Shown: positions 40,479-44,222 of the stretch, one piece after another
Layout of the letters: every line of letters starts with the position of its first letter
Numbering within the stretch: position 1 is the stretch's first letter
Source of the DNA: Arcobacter roscoffensis
GTDB taxonomy: Bacteria; Campylobacterota; Campylobacteria; Campylobacterales; Arcobacteraceae
Reading direction: 5' to 3'
Length of the DNA: 64,000 nucleotides
Assembly (NCBI RefSeq): GCF_024267655.1
Contig: NZ_CP100595.1
Coordinates: 2,852,001 to 2,916,000 of the forward strand
Made by a program: the position numbers and the translations under genes
Notes under the pieces: model-generated
Told to the model about the DNA's origin: nothing
The model's database searches: none
Seen by the model: the letters and a program-made list of their open reading frames with translations, nothing else

Positions 40479-40492
40479 GCCTACTCTTCCTT
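40468..40492. terminator. Bidirectional terminator between the GGDEF gene and lrgB
   Basis: AAGGAGAGTA (40468-40477) pairs with TACTCTTCCTT (40482-40492) with a single bulge, overlapping both stop codons. Confidence 0.6.
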
Positions 40493-41207
40493 ATGCTTTT
40501 AGAAACTGAATAATTAAAGGCAAAAATACTGCTGTAAAAATTCCACTTAAGCCCATAGCTAAAGCTGAAAAAGCTGCTGCTTTTTGGCTTATCTCAATTG
40601 CTCTTGCTGTTCCTATTCCATGAGAAACTACACCTAAAGCAAAACCTTTTGAAGTATCATGTTTTATTTTTATTACTTTAAAAATAAAAGTCCCTAAAAG
40701 TGCTCCTATTATTCCTGTAATAATCACAAAGCCAACAGCAAGTGATGGAATAGCACCTATTTGTTCACTTGTAATAATAGCAATTGGTGCAGTAATTGAC
40801 TTTGTAGTCATAGATAAAATAGTTGGCATATTTGCATCAAAAACCCATAGCAATAAAACTGCTATTAAAATAGAGAAAATTCCTGCAATAACTAAAGTTA
40901 TCATAATTGGTAAAAACAAAGACTTTATATATTTTAAGTTCTTATATAAAGGAAGTGCTAAAGCAACAGTTGCAGGTCCTAAAAAGAAATGAATTATCTC
41001 AACTCCTTTAAAATACTCTTCATATGAAACACCTGTTATAAACAAGACACTCATTATAATAATATATGAAATGATAATTGGCTGGAGTAAAGTGTGTTTA
41101 TTAAACTTTTCATAAATAATAATTCCTAATTTAAAAGAGCCTAAAGTAAGTATCAACCAAATAAGTGTTGAGTTTGAGATATAATCTATTAGTGCATCTA
41201 TATTCAT
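40491..41207 (-). CDS. lrgB: LrgB/CidB-family membrane protein
   Basis: The 238-aa product has about seven hydrophobic helices and family segments SMTTKSITAPIAIITSEQIGAIPSL and SHGIGTARAIEISQKAAAFSALAMGLSG (cited in part). LrgB works with LrgA; the pair is described as holin/antiholin-like and, in some bacteria, as a carrier for pyruvate or glycolate. It overlaps lrgA by four bases (ATGA). The operon is divergent from a YheO-like regulator, with dyads in the promoter region. Confidence 0.9.
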   Translation of the reverse strand: MNIDALIDYISNSTLIWLILTLGSFKLGIIIYEKFNKHTLLQPIIISYIIIMSVLFITGVSYEEYFKGVEIIHFFLGPATVALALPLYKNLKYIKSLFLPIMITLVIAGIFSILIAVLLLWVFDANMPTILSMTTKSITAPIAIITSEQIGAIPSLAVGFVIITGIIGALLGTFIFKVIKIKHDTSKGFALGVVSHGIGTARAIEISQKAAAFSALAMGLSGIFTAVFLPLIIQFLKA

Positions 41208-41554
41208 TTTTTACCCTCTTGTCTAATCGTTAAATAATCCATTAATTTTGCGCAAAAAGCTAAAGCTATAATAGTTCCAAAAAATAGTGCAATTGTAATT
41301 GCCCAAAACTCTTTAGAGATAATATCAATTTGAGTTATAATACCCATAGCAGCTGGAATAAAAAGCATTGGCAAATATTTTAAGTGAATAAAAACTGCAT
41401 TATCTAAACTTTCAAAACTACTTTTTCTAAGTATTAAAAAAATAAGTAGTAAAACCATTCCAATAACTGGACCTGGTACTAATAAATCAAATAGTTTTGC
41501 AATACATTCGCCTAAAAACTGAAAAACTAAAAGTGTAATAATTCCTTTTAACAT
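41204..41554 (-). CDS. lrgA: LrgA/CidA-family membrane protein
   Basis: The 116-aa product has four hydrophobic helices and the family core LVPGPVIGMVLLLIFL plus KYLPMLFIPAAMGI (cited in part). It is the first gene of lrgAB, and its start is 36 bp from the nearest TAGAC-type dyad. The exact transport or regulatory role is not settled for the family; the regulator next door is of the type that controls amino-acid or small-molecule use, so a transport role is favoured. Confidence 0.9.
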   Translation of the reverse strand: MLKGIITLLVFQFLGECIAKLFDLLVPGPVIGMVLLLIFLILRKSSFESLDNAVFIHLKYLPMLFIPAAMGIITQIDIISKEFWAITIALFFGTIIALAFCAKLMDYLTIRQEGKK

Positions 41555-41590
41555 ATATAAATCCTTAAAAAATGAAATTATACTTTATTG

Positions 41591-41634
41591 TAGACATTTT
41601 GTCAATTTAAAGTTTTATATAGACACTTTGTATT
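41591..41634. promoter_or_regulatory. Paired TAGAC-type dyads between lrgAB and the YheO-like regulator gene
   Basis: TAGACATTTTGTCAA (41591-41605) and TAGACACTTTGTATT (41620-41634) start 29 bp apart. The first has a GACA-TTT-TGTC dyad. The same motif recurs at 43182-43215. They are probable binding sites of the adjacent YheO/DauR-like regulator. Confidence 0.6.
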
Positions 41635-41662
41635 TTAAAGTTCTTTATTGTATCATGCTTTT

Positions 41663-42271
41663 ATGAATAAAGTATTAGAAACATTTACCCCATTATGCGA
41701 CTCAATAGGCAAACTTTTTTATCCAAATGTTGAAGTTGTCCTTCATGATTTAGAGACTCAAAAATTAGTACATATAGTAAACCCTTTTTCAAAAAGAGAG
41801 ATTGGTGATGACATGCTAAATGATGTAAAAGATTTTGAGTCCATAAAAGAAGATATTGTAGGACCATATAATAAAACAAATATTGATGGAACAAAATTAA
41901 AAAGTGTTTCAACTCTTTTAAGAGATACAAATAGTAAACCAATTGGAATTATCTGTATCAATTTTAAAGTTGAAGTTTTTGAGAAAATGTATGACTCTTT
42001 AAAAATGCTTCTAAATATTGAAGATAAAAGTTCACAACCGCAAACTATTTTCTCTCAAGACTGGAAAGAACATACCCATAATACAATCAATAAATTTTTA
42101 AAAGAACATAATTTACAACTTGGGGATTTAAAAATAAAAGAAAAAAAAGAGTTAATTATATATTTAAATAAAGAAGGTATTTTCTCTATCAGAAATGTTG
42201 TAAGTTACCTTTGTGAAGTTTTAGATATTTCAAGAGCTACTATTTATAAGTGGCTAAAAGAAGATAAATAG
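41663..42271 (+). CDS. YheO/DauR-like transcriptional regulator (PAS_6 + HTH_22)
   Basis: The product of about 202 aa has an N-terminal PAS-like domain (FTPLCDSIGKLFYPNVEVVLHDLE; GICINFKVEVFEKM, cited in part) and a C-terminal helix-turn-helix (GIFSIRNVVSYLCEVLDISRATIYKWLKE, cited in part). These are the marks of the YheO/DauR family, whose known member DauR regulates D-arginine use in Pseudomonas. The frame is open from a TTG at 41648, but ATG 41663 fits the family start better; neither has a strong ribosome binding site. It is divergent from lrgAB with two dyads between them. Confidence 0.87.
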   Translation: MNKVLETFTPLCDSIGKLFYPNVEVVLHDLETQKLVHIVNPFSKREIGDDMLNDVKDFESIKEDIVGPYNKTNIDGTKLKSVSTLLRDTNSKPIGIICINFKVEVFEKMYDSLKMLLNIEDKSSQPQTIFSQDWKEHTHNTINKFLKEHNLQLGDLKIKEKKELIIYLNKEGIFSIRNVVSYLCEVLDISRATIYKWLKEDK

Positions 42272-42292
42272 TAAAGCCTAAGCTTTACTATT
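42267..42292. terminator. Bidirectional terminator
   Basis: AATAGTAAAGC (42267-42277) pairs perfectly with GCTTTACTATT (42282-42292) over a CTAA loop, covering the stop codons of two convergent genes. Confidence 0.8.
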
Positions 42293-43142
42293 ATGATTTA
42301 AAAAGTTGATAAATTGAAGAGAAATCTTCATCTCCCTTACCCATCATTTTCATTTTTGAAAATAGCTCTTTTGGCATAGCTGCACTATAAAGTGGCTTTT
42401 GCATAGAGTAAGCTAAGTCTTGCAATAAATGTAAATCCTTATTTATTGCATCATTTGAAAAGTGTGCAGAGAAATCCTCATCTATTAACTTCTGTTTTTT
42501 AGCATTTAAAACAAGTGAAGTTCCCCCACCTACTCCTAAAATATCTAAAGCTTTAGATTTATCTATATCGCAATCTTGAGCTAAAGAAGTACACTCAGCA
42601 ATTGTCGCCATAAAAGAACCTAAACAAAGGTTATTAATAAGTTTCATTTTTGTAGCAGCAGAGGGTTTTTCTAAAAAGAAAATCTCTTTTCCAAATTTTT
42701 CTAAAAGTGGCTTAACTTCATTAAATACTTCTTCTTTCCCAGAAGCAACTAAAGTTAAAGCTCCTATAAGTGCAGGTGCAACACTTCCAAATACAGGATT
42801 TTCAAGATATTTTCCACCTACTTTTTCCACTTGTTCATGAAATTTCAATACATCTTCATAATGGTTTGTAGATAAATCGATAATTGTTTTACCTTTTACT
42901 TCATCACATAAAAGTCCATTTTCTCCATTTAAAATATTATCAACAGCAGGAGAATCAAAAAGACATAAAAAAACTACATCACATTTTTTTAAAATATCTT
43001 TTGGAGTATCTACTATTTCATAACCTAAATTTTCAACTTTTGATTTTGTTCTATTATAAACTACAAGTTCTTCACCCATTTGAGTTAATCTTGTAGCAAT
43101 TGCTTGACCTAGATTACCAAGTCCTATAAATCCTATTGCCAT
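42291..43142 (-). CDS. NAD(P)-dependent beta-hydroxyacid dehydrogenase family protein
   Basis: The 283-aa product has the N-terminal dinucleotide-binding motif GFIGLGNLGQAIATRL (residues 4-19), the NRTKSK cofactor-specificity loop that favours NADP(H), the substrate motif ENPVFGSVAPALIGAL (about 118-133) and the catalytic lysine in KLINNLCLG (about 165-173). This is the 3-hydroxyisobutyrate dehydrogenase/GLYR1 superfamily; substrates may be small aldehydes or hydroxyacids and cannot be told by eye. It is divergent from the flavin-fold gene at 43255, with two dyads in between. Confidence 0.9.
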   Translation of the reverse strand: MAIGFIGLGNLGQAIATRLTQMGEELVVYNRTKSKVENLGYEIVDTPKDILKKCDVVFLCLFDSPAVDNILNGENGLLCDEVKGKTIIDLSTNHYEDVLKFHEQVEKVGGKYLENPVFGSVAPALIGALTLVASGKEEVFNEVKPLLEKFGKEIFFLEKPSAATKMKLINNLCLGSFMATIAECTSLAQDCDIDKSKALDILGVGGGTSLVLNAKKQKLIDEDFSAHFSNDAINKDLHLLQDLAYSMQKPLYSAAMPKELFSKMKMMGKGDEDFSSIYQLFKS

Positions 43143-43181
43143 TAGTATCCCTTATTTTTTTTAGATGATTATATTAAAATA

Positions 43182-43215
43182 TAGACTTTTAGTCAATATA
43201 TAGACATTTTGTATT
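43182..43215. promoter_or_regulatory. Paired TAGAC-type dyads between the dehydrogenase and flavin-fold genes
   Basis: TAGACTTTTAGTCAA (43182-43196), with a GACT-TTT-AGTC dyad, and TAGACATTTTGTATT (43201-43215) start 19 bp apart. They match the motif in front of lrgAB, suggesting one small regulon. Confidence 0.6.
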
Positions 43216-43254: not shown

Positions 43255-43803
43255 ATGGCAAATTTTACTAATAAACTATCAGAAGATGATATAAATTTTA
43301 TAAAAAAACAAAAAATGTTTTTTGTATCTACTACACCTAAGGAAGGAAAAATAAACCTTTCTCCAAAAGGTTTAGATGATACATTTAAAATCATAAATGA
43401 AAATAAAATTTTATGGCTAAACTACTTTGGAAGCGGAAATGAAACAGCAGCGCACTTACTTGAAGATAAAAGAATGACTCTAATGTTTTGTGCATTTGAA
43501 GGTAGTGCTAATATTTTAAGACTTTATTGTATAGCTAAAGTAATACAAGAAAAAGATGAAAACTGGGATGAATATATTTCTCATTTTCCTATTAAAAGAG
43601 CTGCAAGACAAGTTTTTGAAGTTACAATAGAAAGTATAAATAACTCTTGTGGTATGGGTGTTCCTCTATATGATTACTTAGGTCAAAGAAAAGAACTTAC
43701 AGATTTTTATGATAATTCATCAAAAGAAGACCATATTGCTTATATGAAGAAAAAAAATCAGGTAAGTTTTGATGGAAAAGAAACTAAATTATTTGAAAAA
43801 TAG
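43255..43803 (+). CDS. Pyridoxamine 5'-phosphate oxidase-family (FMN-binding split barrel) protein
   Basis: The 182-aa product has the split-barrel pattern: FFVSTTPKEGKINLSPKGLD near the start, LWLNYFGSGNETAAHLLEDKRMTLMFCAF in the middle and RAARQVFEVTIESINNSCGMGVPLYDY later (all cited in part). The ETAAHLLED segment is typical of the family of general-stress or flavin/F420-like proteins rather than of PdxH itself, so a role in vitamin B6 synthesis is unlikely. Probably FMN- or heme-binding; its substrate is unknown. It is part of the putative YheO-like regulon. Confidence 0.87.
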   Translation: MANFTNKLSEDDINFIKKQKMFFVSTTPKEGKINLSPKGLDDTFKIINENKILWLNYFGSGNETAAHLLEDKRMTLMFCAFEGSANILRLYCIAKVIQEKDENWDEYISHFPIKRAARQVFEVTIESINNSCGMGVPLYDYLGQRKELTDFYDNSSKEDHIAYMKKKNQVSFDGKETKLFEK

Positions 43804-43806
43804 AAA

Positions 43807-43834
43807 TATAAAAGAGCAATAATGCTCTTTTATA
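43807..43834. terminator. Bidirectional terminator
   Basis: TATAAAAGAGCA (43807-43818) pairs perfectly with TGCTCTTTTATA (43823-43834), loop ATAA, between convergent genes. Confidence 0.85.
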
Positions 43835-44222
43835 CTAAAGGATCTTCTCCACTCTCCCAAGAAGCTAAGAACTTCTCAACTAAGTGAAAATCTTCGCCTT
43901 TGTGTTCTGTAAAGGTTAAATATTGATTTTTTGTATCTACTTGAAAGTTTACTTTTACAATCTCCATAAATCTAAGAGCTAATTCTCTTCTTTTTTCTAT
44001 AGTTCTACCTTCTCTAATATCTAGATTCATTAAACAAATATCATCTTTTGGGTCTGCTCTTCCAATGCTTAAAGAATATTTTTCATATTCTCTTAAAGAT
44101 ATTGCAATGTGGTCTTTTCCTGTATCCATAACTTCGCTAAAAACATCTCTTATTTGCTTTGCAAACTCTTCTTTTGTTTCTTTACAAACTTTTTTGTTTA
44201 TTTCAAACTGTAAATGAGGCAT
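43830..44222 (-). CDS. Tautomerase-superfamily protein
   Basis: The 130-aa product begins MPHLQFEINKK; proline after Met1 is the catalytic base of this superfamily. The rest fits two beta-alpha-beta units, with KDHIAISLREYEKYSLSIGRADPKDDICLMNLDIREGRTIEKRRELALRF (cited in part) resembling 5-carboxymethyl-2-hydroxymuconate isomerase or malonate semialdehyde decarboxylase-like members. The substrate cannot be read from sequence. A 9-bp dyad (44234-44258) lies directly upstream and could be an operator. Confidence 0.85.
   Translation of the reverse strand: MPHLQFEINKKVCKETKEEFAKQIRDVFSEVMDTGKDHIAISLREYEKYSLSIGRADPKDDICLMNLDIREGRTIEKRRELALRFMEIVKVNFQVDTKNQYLTFTEHKGEDFHLVEKFLASWESGEDPLV

Follow-up and report, generated by a model that had tools for sequence, protein, structure and literature searches.

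Two divergent promoter regions in Arcobacter roscoffensis, lying around the gene of a PAS-domain regulator, share pairs of a short dyad. Do the genes that start from these regions form one regulon, what would be the sign of its control, and what would it serve? A preliminary description of this locus had proposed that lrgAB, the regulator, a dehydrogenase and a flavin-fold gene are controlled together. We analysed the locus computationally within a 64,000-nucleotide stretch of the genome, called the window below, and compared it with related genomes.

Genes of the locus

The locus contains, in this order, lrgB, lrgA, a divergent regulator gene, a dehydrogenase gene, a divergent PNPOx-type gene and a tautomerase-family gene. 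lrgB (40491 to 41207, minus strand) and lrgA (41204 to 41554, minus strand) are adjacent and overlapping, and encode proteins with the LrgB (PF04172, 249.4 bits) and LrgA (PF03788, 82.5 bits) domains. LrgB reached 182 bits against the NCBIfam equivalog TIGR00659 (CidB/LrgB autolysis modulator), below the cut-off of 249.7, and was therefore not assigned to that named equivalog. The regulator (202 aa, 41663 to 42271, plus strand) has a PAS_6 domain (PF08348, 88.9 bits for a gathering score of 27) and an HTH_22 domain (PF13309, 59.8 bits for 29.6). These domains, together with 40% identity to DauR, bear out its initial classification as YheO/DauR-like, and its ATG at 41663 is kept in all 10 close orthologues. 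A sequence search of the PDB with the regulator gave a single, chance-level match (E 0.89). Its structural model (pTM 0.55) retrieved many PAS folds, with TMq values of 0.27 to 0.41 that are too weak to name a ligand; these matches include sensor domains with pyruvate, malonate or citrate in their solved structures.

The dehydrogenase (283 aa, 42291 to 43142, minus strand) is a beta-hydroxyacid dehydrogenase with PF03446 and PF14833 (NAD_binding_2 and NAD_binding_11). It is nearest to N-PAC/GLYR1-type proteins, its best PDB matches being 2uyy, 3pef, 3pdu and 3doj, and GLYR1-type enzymes are glyoxylate/succinic semialdehyde reductases. Beta-hydroxyacid dehydrogenases have a catalytic lysine, and a serine in the substrate-binding motif. 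Lys167 of the window enzyme aligns with this lysine, and is kept in 22/22 sequences of the family and in 20/20 of the second family described below. The serine of the GLYR1-type motif, in contrast, is absent: all 22 sequences of the family have Phe118 in its place, and the 20 of the second family have Leu or Phe. Given this replacement, and since no named NCBIfam equivalog reached its cut-off with this protein, the dehydrogenase was assigned to superfamily level only.

The PNPOx-type split-barrel protein, hereafter the flavoprotein (182 aa, 43255 to 43803, plus strand), carries PF01243 (42.7 bits for a gathering score of 28.1). Nothing solid came out of a sequence search of the PDB; the structural model (pLDDT 82.6) is a PNPOx-like, FMN-type split barrel with 2htd as best fold match (TMt 0.83), and HupZ/HutZ heme proteins are also among its matches. 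Two relatives of this gene, L120 (genome G065) and L127 (G098), have an in-frame stop or are fragmentary.

Paired dyads in two promoter regions

The dyads TAGACATTTTGTC, TAGACACTTTGTA, TAGACTTTTAGTC and TAGACATTTTGTA were found at 41591, 41620, 43182 and 43201, as first reported, and they do lie in pairs in two divergent promoter regions. Dyads 1 (41591 to 41603) and 2 (41620 to 41632) are 29 bp apart between lrgA and the regulator gene, and dyads 3 (43182 to 43194) and 4 (43201 to 43213) are 19 bp apart between the dehydrogenase and flavoprotein genes; none was given a strand. The form common to the four is the 13-mer TAGACWYTTWGTM, TAGAC-W-Y-TT-W-GT-M, or TAGAC-N5-GTC when reduced to the dyad. 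The motif as originally written, corresponding to the 14-mer TAGACWYTTTNGTM, was one letter too long and fits none of the four copies exactly; with 2 mismatches allowed, it gave 31 matches for 25.2 expected and recovered, of the four copies, only the one at 41591. A dyad was also looked for upstream of the tautomerase-family gene of the window (130 aa, 43830 to 44222, minus strand), and none was found.

Four copies of the 13-mer were counted in the window, for 0.04 expected, and none of 100 shuffles reached 4. In the whole genome (3,154,193 bases), 6 exact copies were counted, 4 of which are those of the window, as compared to 3 for the reversed control, and the remaining two both lie within long coding ORFs. 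The genome count and the shuffles together rule out a chance origin of the dyads.

The relaxed form TAGAC-N5-GTM had 73 matches in the genome and its control 56, so that single degenerate copies carry little meaning. Of the 73 matches, we inspected the four of the window, the two other exact copies and, without overlap, 16 found in 14 stretches of our choice; all 16 are inside ORFs. The preliminary description had named a dyad common throughout the genome as an argument against its own proposal, yet the exact 13-mer is present only 6 times in 3.15 Mb. A genome-wide repeat is likewise ruled out, the exact form being rare and the relaxed matches near control level, with those that were read in ORFs. 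The specific feature is the paired, intergenic dyad with an AT core.

Dyads and regulator within the family

Relatives of the regulator are present in 27 of the 104 family genomes, and close ones (62 to 100% identity) in 10, namely G000, G091, G066, G058 and G077 to G082. In all 10, a dyad pair with a spacing of 29 or 30 bp adjoins the regulator gene. Eight of these pairs are located between lrgA and the regulator gene, and those of G066 and G058 between a short-chain dehydrogenase (SDR) gene and the regulator gene, the G066 SDR matching PF00106/PF13561. lrgAB has been relocated downstream in G066, yet lrgA has its own dyad there. The first dyad of G077 and G078 reads TATAC. G091, the next relative of the window genome, has a second pair at the dehydrogenase/flavoprotein region, with 29 bp between dyads compared to 19 in the window, which is one helical turn less in the window. 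A 1123-aa cadherin-domain gene separates the regulator gene from the dehydrogenase gene in G091 (L037:4633-8004), where both dyad pairs are kept.

A matrix was built from 21 lrgA, regulator and SDR sites, excluding the dehydrogenase/flavoprotein sites, and its null was taken from 2000 shuffles, with a maximum of 15.7. Duplicate upstreams were omitted, as were stretches of less than 120 or 130 bp and matches below 55 or 60% identity or starting past residue 6, and the 52 close lrgB places yielded 42 distinct lrgA upstreams. Nine of these scored above all shuffles, all from regulator-bearing genomes, for which the test is circular; the next best score was 7.8. An lrgA site was thus present in 9/10 upstreams from genomes with the regulator versus 0/32 from genomes without (Fisher 2e-8, kinship ignored). 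The test is not circular for the dehydrogenase and flavoprotein upstreams: 2/35 and 2/22, respectively, scored above all shuffles, with next best scores of 11.2 and 8.0. In both sets, the two belong to the window genome and G091, and their sites score 18.7 to 21.9. None of the 31 dehydrogenase and 18 flavoprotein upstreams from genomes lacking the regulator had a site, as for lrgA. Among regulator-bearing genomes, the matrix scan detected no site at lrgA, dehydrogenase or flavoprotein genes in G058, and none at the dehydrogenase or flavoprotein genes in G066.

A strict pattern for the pair was found at 22 places in 19 of 398 genomes of the order. All 9 places in the family (47 genomes sampled) are at the promoters described here; outside the family, it occurs at only 13 places, compared to 39 there for the reversed control.

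A second family

A regulator with 53 to 57% identity was found in 20 of 24 sampled genomes of genus g39, family f20, which is perhaps Sulfurospirillum. It faces an orthologue of the dehydrogenase (61 to 68%) in 20/20 loci, with some 80 to 100 bp between the two genes. This region keeps TAGAATTATAGTC and, 18 bp further, a dyad like TAGACACTTTATC; the first dyad deviates at one conserved base (TAGAA). With the matrix of the first family, pair sums were above the 99th percentile of shuffles in 20/20 loci, the spacing being 18 bp in 18 of them, and the best single score was above this percentile in 15/20. The loci are closely related, so they amount to one line of evidence, not twenty. Of 13 g39 genomes searched, 8 have a close lrgB orthologue (54 to 65%), located away from this locus, and a perfect dyad in G281 is the only site among their 8 lrgA upstreams.

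Co-regulation through the dyads is well supported by these comparisons. As to the shared regulon proposed initially, the dyad pairs do track the regulator through two families; the flavin-fold gene is its weakest member, with dyads in only 2 of 22 upstreams (the window genome and G091). Might the dyads instead bind another factor, encoded elsewhere, the neighbouring regulator being incidental? That the regulator binds them is our inference, and no more than 5 of the 19 relatives sampled outside the phylum have a dyad beside them (see below). The pairs adjoin the regulator gene, however, in every family genome with a close regulator (10/10) and every second-family locus (20/20), and the dyad is missing from all lrgA, dehydrogenase and flavoprotein upstreams scored from family genomes without it. 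We regard a factor encoded elsewhere as very improbable.

Promoters and sign of control

The predicted lrgA promoter, TTGACA-N17-TATAAT (41577 to 41605, minus strand), matches the sigma-70 consensus at 12/12 positions, and the predicted dehydrogenase promoter, TTGACT-N17-TATAAT (43168 to 43196, minus strand), at 11/12. Dyad 1, taken with the next two bases, extends over the -35 box of lrgA into the spacer, and dyad 3 over the -35 box and spacer of the dehydrogenase gene. On the other side, dyad 2 overlaps what is probably the -35 region of the regulator gene, whose predicted promoter is TTGTAT-N17-TATCAT (41628 to 41656, plus strand), and dyad 4 is upstream of the flavoprotein gene. Both rightward genes have poor -35 boxes, with the dyad overlapping the -35 region or directly next to it. 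The -10 box of the regulator gene is placed 6 nt before the ATG (41651-41663), with no visible Shine-Dalgarno sequence, and G091 has the same layout; from this arrangement, the regulator mRNA may be leaderless, a property that would be conserved in G091.

All nine lrgA promoters with a dyad have TTGACA-N17/18-TATAAT (12/12), compared to 10/12 for the best of 33 without. The nine are related rather than independent sequences, and TTGACA overlaps in part with the dyad's conserved GTCAA. Dehydrogenase promoters with a dyad score 11 and 12, and four without a dyad also score 12, so a strong promoter alone proves nothing. These four (L076, L077, L078 and L085) have a perfect TTGACA-N17-TATAAT before the dehydrogenase gene in genomes with neither a close regulator nor a dyad.

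As dyads 1 and 3 each overlap a -35 box with their right arm, the repeats could simply be promoter parts, TTGACA-like boxes and AT-rich spacers that resemble an operator. The left arm TAGAC is, however, as conserved as the right one, the spacings differ by one turn, and the four perfect dehydrogenase promoters just mentioned contain no dyad. Of all the explanations considered, this is the one to which we give the least credit.

In G281, the dyad comes directly past the lrgA -10 box (TATAAT), at the start region. Dyads over the -35 box and spacer, or at the start region as in G281, are in repressor positions, and the regulator is most likely a repressor, as judged from this layout. Alternatively, the same regulon could be activated, with the dyads near -35 serving as activator sites from which the ligand-bound protein recruits RNA polymerase. 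This would suit the poor -35 boxes of the regulator and flavoprotein genes, which the dyads overlap or abut. A precedent exists in HeuR of Campylobacter jejuni (heme uptake), a protein of the same phylum with a PAS domain and an HTH, which is reported as an activator of the chu genes (PMC5111405). That paper identified no binding site for HeuR, whereas the window regulator is a predicted repressor with a candidate dyad operator. The lrgA promoters, moreover, are already perfect with a dyad in the -35 box and spacer, and the G281 dyad is downstream of -10. Activation is in our opinion unlikely, if less so than the two preceding alternatives.

The repressor reading can be put as follows. The 202-aa regulator would repress its own gene and the neighbouring ones under the control of a ligand, acting through the paired TAGAC-N5-GTC dyads, and we hold this to be the probable mechanism. 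It would bind the dyads pairwise, at distances of 18-19 or 29-30 bp that differ by one helical turn. The leftward dyad would mask the -35 box and spacer of the strong lrgA and dehydrogenase promoters, and the rightward one the -35 region of the weaker regulator and flavoprotein promoters. A small metabolite sensed by the PAS domain would free the regulator from DNA, and LrgAB, the NADPH-type dehydrogenase and the flavoprotein would be switched on together. Dyads, positions, conservation and promoter overlap are directly observed; binding, repression and release by a ligand are inferred from them. The locus is very probably a genuine small regulon with a defined candidate operator and repressor control. 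PAS_6/HTH_22 regulators occur widely, and for most of them we have met no description of a ligand or an operator; this locus offers a defined candidate operator, for which genomes with and without the regulator are built-in controls.

LrgAB and the dehydrogenase as partners

Among the 104 genomes searched, a close dehydrogenase was found in 48, lrgB in 51, and both in 38 (Fisher 1.5e-8, kinship ignored). In 29 of these 38 genomes, lrgB lies no more than 6 kb downstream of the dehydrogenase gene and on the same strand, and in 24, the window's own included, no more than 1.3 kb. Many genomes in which the dehydrogenase gene and lrgAB adjoin have no regulator, and the gene neighbourhoods indicate that the two belong together also without it. 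L200 and L205 share one gene order: transketolase, dehydrogenase, tautomerase, lrgA, lrgB, arsR, GGCT and arsB, with one opposite-strand gene after transketolase in L205. In the window, the same genes are interspersed with the regulator, flavoprotein and a GGDEF gene, and the two resulting transcription units have the dyad in common. The regulator-lrgAB unit was present and no close dehydrogenase orthologue was found in the six genomes G077 to G082. In four loci of one genus (L203, L204, L209 and L210), the setting is different, and the dehydrogenase gene comes after those of an exporter of the LysE type and a regulator of the AraC type (Pfam was run on L203 and on the exporter of L209).

LrgAB/PftAB relatives of Bacillus, Streptococcus and Staphylococcus are described as pyruvate transport systems. 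They share the LrgA and LrgB Pfam families with the window pair, and those met in the literature search are linked to LytST or to a regulator of the ArsR type, whereas the window lrgAB is tied to a PAS_6/HTH_22 protein. The circuit may serve a small organic acid, and the initial suggestion that such an acid, or an aldehyde, is taken up and detoxified agrees with the gene families. LrgAB might then carry a small oxo- or hydroxy-carboxylate that the dehydrogenase interconverts; this is the least certain step, and such a shuttle is our best guess, though a doubtful one. Views on LrgAB are divided between a role in cell death and one in carboxylate transport; its link here to a specific dehydrogenase gives growth and transport tests a short list of small acids to start from. 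The openly accessible literature searched contained no report joining lrgAB to a PAS_6/HTH_22 regulator, and none of a DauR operator. As far as it shows, the gene combination is new and the circuit ordinary in kind.

Regulator relatives beyond the phylum

DauR of Pseudomonas aeruginosa regulates dauBA, for D-arginine catabolism, and responds to D-arginine or D-lysine. The window regulator belongs to the same family (40% identical over 98% of its length), but differs in its neighbours, lrgAB and a beta-hydroxyacid dehydrogenase instead of dauB and dauA. A GAC-N5-GTC dyad was looked for in the P. aeruginosa dauB/dauR record, and none was found.

Of 169 plasmid records with a regulator relative, 18 were read, and a Paludibacterium locus in addition. 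The relatives read outside the phylum mostly adjoin genes for amino-acid enzymes or transporters, such as dauBA, ornithine cyclodeaminases, aminotransferases and RidA; no lrgAB was found next to them in the stretches examined. In the 250 bp upstream of 19 such regulators, GAC-W-N3-W-GTC is present in 6 copies in 5 regions, and ranks top of all 64 triplet dyads (runner-up 3 copies in 3 regions), a post hoc result from a small chosen sample in which 14 of 19, P. aeruginosa dauR included, have no dyad. The five regions come from Rhizobium, Paludibacterium, Phaeobacter and Streptomyces, and comprise all three relatives with at least 41% identity, plus Phaeobacter and Streptomyces.

Plants pair a glyoxylate reductase with an LrgAB-type glycolate/glycerate translocator. 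It is conceivable, though we lean against it, that GAC-W-N3-W-GTC is the ancestral operator of a cross-phylum DauR-like PAS_6/HTH_22 clade, bound as tandem dyads about 2 or 3 helical turns apart. The regulons of this sensor family would then be readable from sequence, and one Campylobacterota branch would have been recruited to a hydroxyacid dehydrogenase and LrgAB, in parallel to the plant pairing.

The genome of the window encodes a second PAS_6/HTH_22-type regulator (L159, 2246500-2255500), only 29% identical to the window regulator, which is nearer to DauR (40%). No GAC-N5-GTC dyad was found when looked for at this locus. The gene of this paralogue is divergent from RidA-like and D-amino-acid-dehydrogenase-like (dadA-like) genes, and the locus is probably a D-alanine system.
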